Both the position numbers and the translations under genes were made by a program. Below the pieces are notes generated by a model. It searched no databases and was not told the DNA's origin. It was given only the letters and a program-made list of their open reading frames with translations. This document shows, one piece after another, positions 13,375-39,568 of a stretch of DNA of 64,000 nt; the first letter of the stretch is position 1, and every line of letters starts with the position of its first letter. Source of the stretch: Blattabacterium cuenoti (GTDB lineage: Bacteria > Bacteroidota > Bacteroidia > Flavobacteriales > Blattabacteriaceae); NCBI RefSeq assembly GCF_014251655.1, contig NZ_CP059225.1:542028-606027 (forward strand), read 5' to 3'.

Positions 13375-14300
13375 ATGAAAAAAACCTTTTTTCCTGCAAA
13401 AATATTATTGTTTGGAGAATATGGAATTTTAGAAAATTCTATAGGACTTTCTATTCCACATAATCTTTATAAAGGAACTTTGAAAAGTTATTACAAATTC
13501 AATAAGGATATATTATGGTCCCATTATGAAATAAAAAAATATTATAATTTCTTATCCCTATTAGAAAAAAAAAACAATTTTTAGTAAAATTAGATTTAAA
13601 AAAATTACATGAAGATATAAAAAACGGGATATTTTTTCATTCAAATATTCCTCAAAAATATGGAATAGGAAGTTCTGGAGCTTTAGTTGCTGCTGTTTAT
13701 GATAAATATGCAAAAAATAAATTAAAAGGAAGCTGGAATGAAAATACAATAATTTTAAAGAAAATATTCAGTCAAATGGAATCTTTTTTTCATGGAAAAA
13801 GTTCAGGGATCGATCCATTGATTTGCTATTTTAATTTGCCTTTACTTATACGTTCAGAACAAGATATTTCTACTGTAGGTATTCCAAAAAAAAAAGAAGG
13901 AAAAGGTGCTATATTTTTATTAAATACTGGAATCCCTAGTAAAACTCATTCTATGATACAAATTTTTTTCAGAAAATTAAAACATGATAAATTTAAAAAA
14001 ATTTTGAAAGAAGAATTCATTAAATACAATGAAATTTGTATCGAAGCTTTTTTAAAAGAAGACTTCCCTATTTTATTAAAAAATGTTAAAAAACTTTCTA
14101 TTTGGATTTTTCATCATTTTCGTCCTATGATTCCGAAAAATTTTTGGAAAATATGGAAAGAAGGTATATATAGCAATATCTATTATTTAAAATTATGCGG
14201 TTCTGGAGGAGGGGGTTTTATTTTAGGATTTACTACAAACTATGAATTATCTAAAAAAAAATTAAAAAAATATACGATGAAAGTGCTTTTTCATTTTTAA
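13375..14300 (+). CDS. Mevalonate kinase (GHMP family), frame broken at an A10 tract
   Basis: Two frames together give one complete flavobacterial-type mevalonate kinase. The first frame (13375-13584) holds the start KILLFGEYG. The second, one base back, holds the ATP-binding motif YGIGSSGALVAA, then ESFFHGKSSGIDP and the C-terminal LCGSGGGGFILGF. Translation runs into TAG just after ten A at 13565-13574. With eleven A the frame is open for 308 codons and every family motif is in place. No other disruption is seen, so the gene is either newly broken, a sequencing error, or expressed through slippage at the A tract. The enzyme phosphorylates mevalonate in the mevalonate route to isoprenoids. 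The neighbours rluB and aroQ match the flavobacterial order as I recall it. Confidence 0.8.
13565..13574 (+). other. A10 homopolymer, putative slippage site in mevalonate kinase
   Basis: Ten consecutive A mark the exact point where the two halves of the kinase frame meet. Adding one A (or removing two) restores a single frame through the ATP-binding motif. Poly(A) tracts in AT-rich endosymbionts are known to let RNA polymerase add or skip A residues. Confidence 0.65.
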
Positions 14301-38489: not shown

Positions 38490-39568
38490 ATGGTAAAAAA
38501 AGAAGAAATTCAATCTATTTCTGAAAGAATAAAAAAAATTCATGATCTATTAAAAATAGATCATATTCGAGAATGTTTTGACAAAAAGAAAAAAGAAATA
38601 TCAGATCCCCATTTCTGGAAAAAAAAAAATCTAAAAATTTTATAGAACAGATGCATCAAATCAAAACATGCATCCAAGATTTTACAAAACTCAAAAATGC
38701 ATTAGAAGAATTAGAAATAATATACTCTCTTTCTAAGGAAGAAAATTTAGAAAAAGAATTCAAAATACAATTACATAAAACTAAAAATTTAGTTTCAAAT
38801 ATAGAATTAAAAAATCTTTTCTCAGAAAAAGAAGATTCCTTAAATGCTATCTTACAAATTTCTTCTGGAGCAGGAGGAACTGAAAGTTGTGAATGGGCTT
38901 CTATGTTAATGAGAATGTATTTCATGTGGGCTGAAAAAAACAATTTTTCCGTGAAAAAAATTCATTCAGTATATGGTGATATTACTGGAATAAAATCTGT
39001 AACTCTAGAAATAGATGGTATTTATGCTTTTGGATACTTGAAAGGAGAAAATGGAGTACATAGATTAATACGGATATCCCCATTTGACAGTAATTCCAAA
39101 CGTCATACTTCTTTTTCTTCTGTTTATGTTTATCCTATGATAAATTACAATATAAACATAAAGGTAAAAACATCTGATATTCAATGGGAAACTTTTCGTT
39201 CTAGTGGATCTGGAGGACAAAATGTAAATAAAGTAGAAACAGGGGTTCGTTTACGTCATAATCCTACAGGAATTACGATAGAAAATACAGAATCTCGTTC
39301 TCAAATACAAAATAGACAAAAAGCTTTACAACTTTTAAAGTCTAGATTATTTGATCTAGAAATCATGAAAAAAAACAAAGAAAAAGAAAAAATAGAATCC
39401 GGAAAAAAAAAGATAGAATGGGGTTCTCAAATAAGAAATTACATTATGCACCCTTATAAATTAGTAAAAGATTTAAGGACCGGTTATGAGACTACAAAAA
39501 TACAATCTGTAATGGATGGAGAAATAGATATTTTTTTAAAAAAGTTGTTAATTCAAAAAAAAATATAA
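38490..39568 (+). CDS. prfB: Peptide chain release factor 2, frame broken at an A11 tract
   Basis: RF2 ends translation at UGA and UAA. The SPF stop-recognition motif (RISPFDSN) and the catalytic GGQ ([12 protein letters not shown]) are intact. The first 42 or so codons from the ATG at 38490 match the RF2 start (ending DPHFW), but then hit TAG at 38643 after eleven A at 38619-38629. The rest of the protein is one base back; twelve A would give one open frame. The canonical RF2 feedback site (a UGA about codon 25 with +1 shift) is absent: that region is in frame. UGA stops are used in the window (secDF, rluB, speA), so RF2 should be needed. Expression through slippage is likely, or initiation at ATG 38651 for a truncated form. 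Next gene: speA, 45 nt on. Confidence 0.88.
38619..38629 (+). other. A11 homopolymer, putative slippage site in prfB
   Basis: Eleven consecutive A follow codon TGG exactly where the two RF2 frames meet. One added A (or two lost) restores the frame. The zero-frame stop reached after the tract is TAG, a codon read by RF1, not RF2, so this is not the classical RF2 self-control. Confidence 0.7.

Follow-up and report, generated by a model that had tools for sequence, protein, structure and literature searches.

A prfB gene split at an A11 tract in Blattabacterium cuenoti, most likely tolerated through slippage

The prfB locus and its two reading frames

In the window, namely the whole stretch of 64,000 nucleotides analysed from contig NZ_CP059225.1 of Blattabacterium cuenoti, the gene for release factor RF2, prfB, lies on the forward strand and is divided between two reading frames. 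The zero frame (38490-38645, +) begins with the ATG at 38490 and reads MVKKEEIQ...DPHFW, which aligns with the RF2 N-terminus of relatives; it then enters a run of eleven As (A11, 38619-38629, +) and is closed by a TAG stop at 38643-38645, 13 nt past the tract, so that its product is a 51-aa peptide, for which no Pfam match was found. The body frame (38588-39568, +), one A away from the start frame, is open until the TAA at 39566-39568 and matches the profiles of the PCRF and RF-1 domains, with a score of 427.7 bits against the prfB model TIGR00020, whose cut-off is 370 bits. An in-frame ATG at 38651-38653, which aligns with relatives, is a candidate reinitiation start for a 305-aa RF2. When the ORFs of two relatives were compared with the window by tblastn, the match to prfB broke at positions 38621/38624 and passed from frame 3 to frame 2, and therefore the rescue amounts to one additional A (or two fewer), equivalent to a -1 ribosomal shift. 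The coordinates, the frames and the tblastn break thus bear out the earlier note on this DNA, which had described prfB as split at an A11 tract that lacks one A for an open frame, and the zero-frame stop is, as it said, a TAG, which is specific to RF1. In fact the gene carries a single indel inside a homopolymer of at least about nine nucleotides and is open elsewhere, the form looked for in endosymbiont frameshifts rescued by slippage.

Requirement for RF2 and condition of the gene

A search of the own genome (a single contig of 621,203 bp) finds one prfB, plus prfA, and a second RF2 copy elsewhere is rejected. Among the 58 genes of the window whose stop was scorable against relatives, 38 end with TAA, 14 with TGA and 6 with TAG. 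With no RF2 gene besides prfB and with TGA as the stop of 14 of these 58 genes, RF2 is needed, as had been claimed from the use of UGA as a stop in several genes; a reassignment of UGA is rejected on the same count. The body of the protein reveals neither decay nor acceleration: none of the 98 columns invariant in the other Blattabacterium genomes is altered here, and the ratio of the RF2 to the mvaK branch of this genome ranks 24th of 48, with an average branch length. In mean identity the N-terminus ranks lowest within its clade (0.59, versus 0.60-0.77), which on alignment could hint at a slight relaxation, though the margin is small and is given little weight.

prfB in related genomes and the origin of the tract

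The gene is found in 49 of 49 Blattabacterium genomes, and in all 48 others the N-terminal region runs across the junction in the body frame. The comparison with relatives which the earlier note had proposed as a check thus finds the break unique (1 of 49 genomes), without conservation across species, which for a frameshift is a supporting criterion and not a required one; a split seen in one genome only offers no means of demonstrating that it is kept by selection. At the junction, relatives (for example at L014, L026 and L009) have TGG-A5-TTAT-A6-TCT, coding for W-KNYKK-S, and without the TTAT this becomes TGG-A11-TCT, as found in this genome. The A11 tract was thus probably made by one 4-bp deletion fusing A5 and A6, and as this single step from the state of the relatives yields exactly A11, this is the branch on which the break came about. 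In G027, which stands next to the present genome in the tree (support 93), prfB is intact and the tract is interrupted, and on this comparison the break is placed on the end branch leading to the present genome.

The classical UGA frameshift site of prfB is absent in all 49 Blattabacterium genomes: none has, near codon 25, an in-frame UGA that follows CUU and is accompanied by an SD-like sequence, the region being in one frame in 49 of 49, and therefore the site was lost before Blattabacterium radiated. In the flavobacterial symbionts Walczuchella, Karelsulcia, Bostrichicola and Shikimatogenerans prfB is in frame too, and in an even draw across the order Flavobacteriales it occupies a single frame in most genomes. 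In one family in particular (f3), and in a few other cases in the order, a stop lies next to where the programmed site is expected, and these bound where the classical frameshift was kept. The earlier note was correct that the usual UGA site is gone and that the region is in frame, while the link which it drew from there to the A11 tract fails, the situation being the same in 49 of 49 genomes. Accordingly the tract as a replacement for the classical site is rejected, the site being missing in the 48 unsplit relatives and in most of the Flavobacteriales sampled.

Two further peculiarities of prfB were observed in the genus. In CHORISOsp (G029, NZ_CP059214; L050:1425-1604, also L062:2228-2407) the gene has, close to its C-terminal end, an A-rich insert containing runs of A20, A20 and A38 and in-frame TAA stops, across which another frame is open; it is either a true expansion or an assembly fault, and as the same event as the A11 split it is rejected and regarded as a separate oddity. 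In a genome with a chromosome of 605,745 bp (G041, locus L040), prfB ends about 10 residues early within the usual C-terminus at a stop reported as TGA, where RF2 may terminate its own synthesis.

A second split gene, mvaK

The tblastn comparison with ORFs from two relatives reveals only two split genes in the 64 kb: besides prfB there is a GHMP kinase gene (13375-14300), whose best match is mevalonate kinase (TIGR00549) with a score under the cut-off. According to tblastn and profile matches, the N-terminal frame of this mevalonate-kinase-like gene, mvaK, spans 13375-13584 (+) and ends with TAG, and by tblastn its body frame spans 13566-14300 (+). It is split by an A10 tract at 13565-13574 (+), in the same phase as prfB, with one additional A needed. 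Unlike the prfB break, this frameshift is conserved across species: of 48 Blattabacterium genomes 17 have mvaK split at this tract, in one phase throughout and with an uninterrupted A10-A11 in every case, whereas a run of at least A10 occurs in 13 of the 31 intact genes (Fisher p 3e-5); in one genome (G034) an A11 in the same context is in frame. The association of tract and split is partly mutational, as long runs break more often, or due to shared descent, the genomes being non-independent. About 10 changes between the split and the intact state are counted on the tree built from RF2 and mvaK proteins, at least 6 of them on well-supported branches, where reversals and new breaks are indistinguishable. 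Such switching is expected if the missing A costs little, being often supplied during expression.

That 17 of 48 genomes are split at this tract and in this phase indicates that +1-A frameshifts at A tracts are real and tolerated in Blattabacterium. In the symbiont of P. fuliginosa mvaK has been listed as a pseudogene (PMC6039017), and Blattabacterium genes listed in this way may be expressed. Moreover the break, present in 17 of 48 genomes and switching along the tree, provides a clean natural set for studying slippage rescue outside Gammaproteobacteria, and the finding in mvaK is probably more important than that in prfB.

Explanations of the prfB split

The earlier note had named a sequencing error as the main alternative, according to which the true tract would be A12, in frame, and prfB an ordinary gene. 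This is possible, and several facts speak for it: the gene is in frame across the junction in 48 of 48 other genomes and the break is unique, the body is unaffected, a miscounted homopolymer would give exactly the observed sign, both breaks of the window need one more A as a systematic undercount would give, and a true A12 could also have been reached if, once the deletion had occurred, a +1 mutation was selected. Against this, A11 takes one 4-bp deletion from A5-TTAT-A6 while A12 takes two steps, and the split at the mvaK A10 is common to other species (17 of 48), from which it follows that the assembly is correct there. In the 621 kb of the genome 206 A tracts reach a length of at least 10, so that prfB stands out by its frame break and not by having such a tract. 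A/T tracts were surveyed in the 64-kb window and at 30 loci with tracts within the first 92 kb, and nearly all those lying in genes are in frame. In the window 20 A/T tracts of at least 10 lie inside one-frame gene matches and two lie at frame breaks (prfB and mvaK); in the first 92 kb about 26 further such tracts have no frame break at the tract. An apparent break at a T14 (L074) is non-coding, at a tRNA/tmRNA-like 3' end. With about 46 other unbroken tracts in these two regions of the same assembly, a systematic undercount at all runs of A10 or more is rejected, and with the deletion argument an error confined to prfB becomes less likely.

The rescue might mainly occur through a -1 shift of the ribosome on A AAA AAA rather than in transcription. 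The zero-frame AAA AAA is indeed preceded by an A, so that a slippery heptamer is present with the TAG 13 nt after the tract, and the protein would be identical to that of the +1-A product. However, the downstream RNA folds weakly (z -1.2) and offers no clear stimulator, no Shine-Dalgarno-like sequence was found upstream of the tract, and the published rescue in endosymbionts is transcriptional (PMC5009743), which make it quite unlikely as the main route. It would be less probable still that the frame is not rescued at all, with translation stopping at the TAG and restarting at the ATG at 38651 to give a sufficiently active 305-aa RF2, or with prfB beginning to decay. This ATG is only 5 nt past the TAG, and the truncated protein, which would lack about 54 N-terminal residues, still scores above the prfB cut-off; however, Met is usual at this site in relatives, which explains the ATG without proving a start. 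Moreover the N-terminus is kept in 48 of 48 relatives and in those smaller-genome flavobacterial symbionts whose loci were read, among which no naturally N-terminally truncated RF2 was found, and the body shows no decay.

The comparisons favour, as the somewhat more probable account, a lineage-specific frameshift rescued by non-programmed slippage at A11; the split is most likely a real feature tolerated in this manner. The TTAT between A5 and A6 would have been deleted, breaking the frame just past the FW that is conserved in the RF2 N-terminal domain. RNA polymerase slippage, as the main route, would then add one A to a share of the prfB transcripts, and some ribosomes may slip by -1 on A AAA AAA in the tract, yielding the same protein, with the result of full-length RF2 at a lowered and unregulated level. 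Slippage at A11 is the best-supported route because mvaK, in the same window, has the same type of split conserved across many species. We infer here the slippage itself, its extent and the machine responsible; the transcriptional slippage proposed in the earlier note is thus supported as slippage, while polymerase and ribosome are not separable from sequence. In frameshifted endosymbiont genes 12-50% of transcripts are corrected by slippage (PMC5009743), and at A/T runs in Buchnera insertions predominate (PMC5574713). In B. vafer eight genes have breaks at polyA/T, with dnaX, dnaG and pth among them, and the frameshifts in dnaG, dxs, pth and ribF are confined to a single lineage (PMC3017870).

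The suggestion that prfB is under a new kind of RF2 control sensing RNA polymerase slippage is not borne out. The split occurs in 1 of 49 genomes, all of which had already lost the classical site, one 4-bp deletion explains the tract, no stimulator is found, and the stop at the junction is TAG, which is unread by RF2 and thus gives no feedback; in surveyed prfB motifs the stop is TGA in >99% and TAA otherwise (PMC12421855). It is very doubtful that slippage at A11 sets the RF2 dosage at a fixed ratio in replacement of the lost feedback, and if the slipping is ribosomal, RF2 output would depend on Lys-tRNA supply and pausing and not on the RF2 level. If the split is real, an essential termination factor would be made only via errors of decoding or transcription, and prfB would illustrate to what extent a symbiont is able to rely on the infidelity of its polymerase.

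Comparison with known systems

In the literature searched, which covered few subscription papers, no report of a prfB split at an A tract in this way was found. As in the classical +1 programmed ribosomal frameshift of prfB (CUU UGA C), RF2 comes here from two frames with the junction near the N-terminus; the site is another one, however, the direction is equivalent to -1, and the stop is TAG with neither UGA nor feedback. In dnaX, slippage on A/T runs or a -1 shift on A AAA AAG (PMC5009743, PMC6260861) likewise leads at an A run to an out-of-frame product, but both products are used there, whereas the short product of prfB is a peptide without Pfam match. The closest resemblance is to the frameshifts at poly(A) tracts rescued by transcriptional slippage in Buchnera and Blochmannia (Tamas 2008 and Wernegreen 2010, as reported in PMC3017870 and PMC5009743): here too an AT-rich obligate insect endosymbiont has, in a needed gene, a single indel at a run of about 10 As, the gene being otherwise intact and not evolving faster. 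It differs in the lineage, Bacteroidota, and in the gene, and its tract seems to stem from a 4-bp deletion joining two runs and not from a 1-nt slip. The split of prfB is thus most likely a known phenomenon of such bacteria, found here in an unusually important essential gene.
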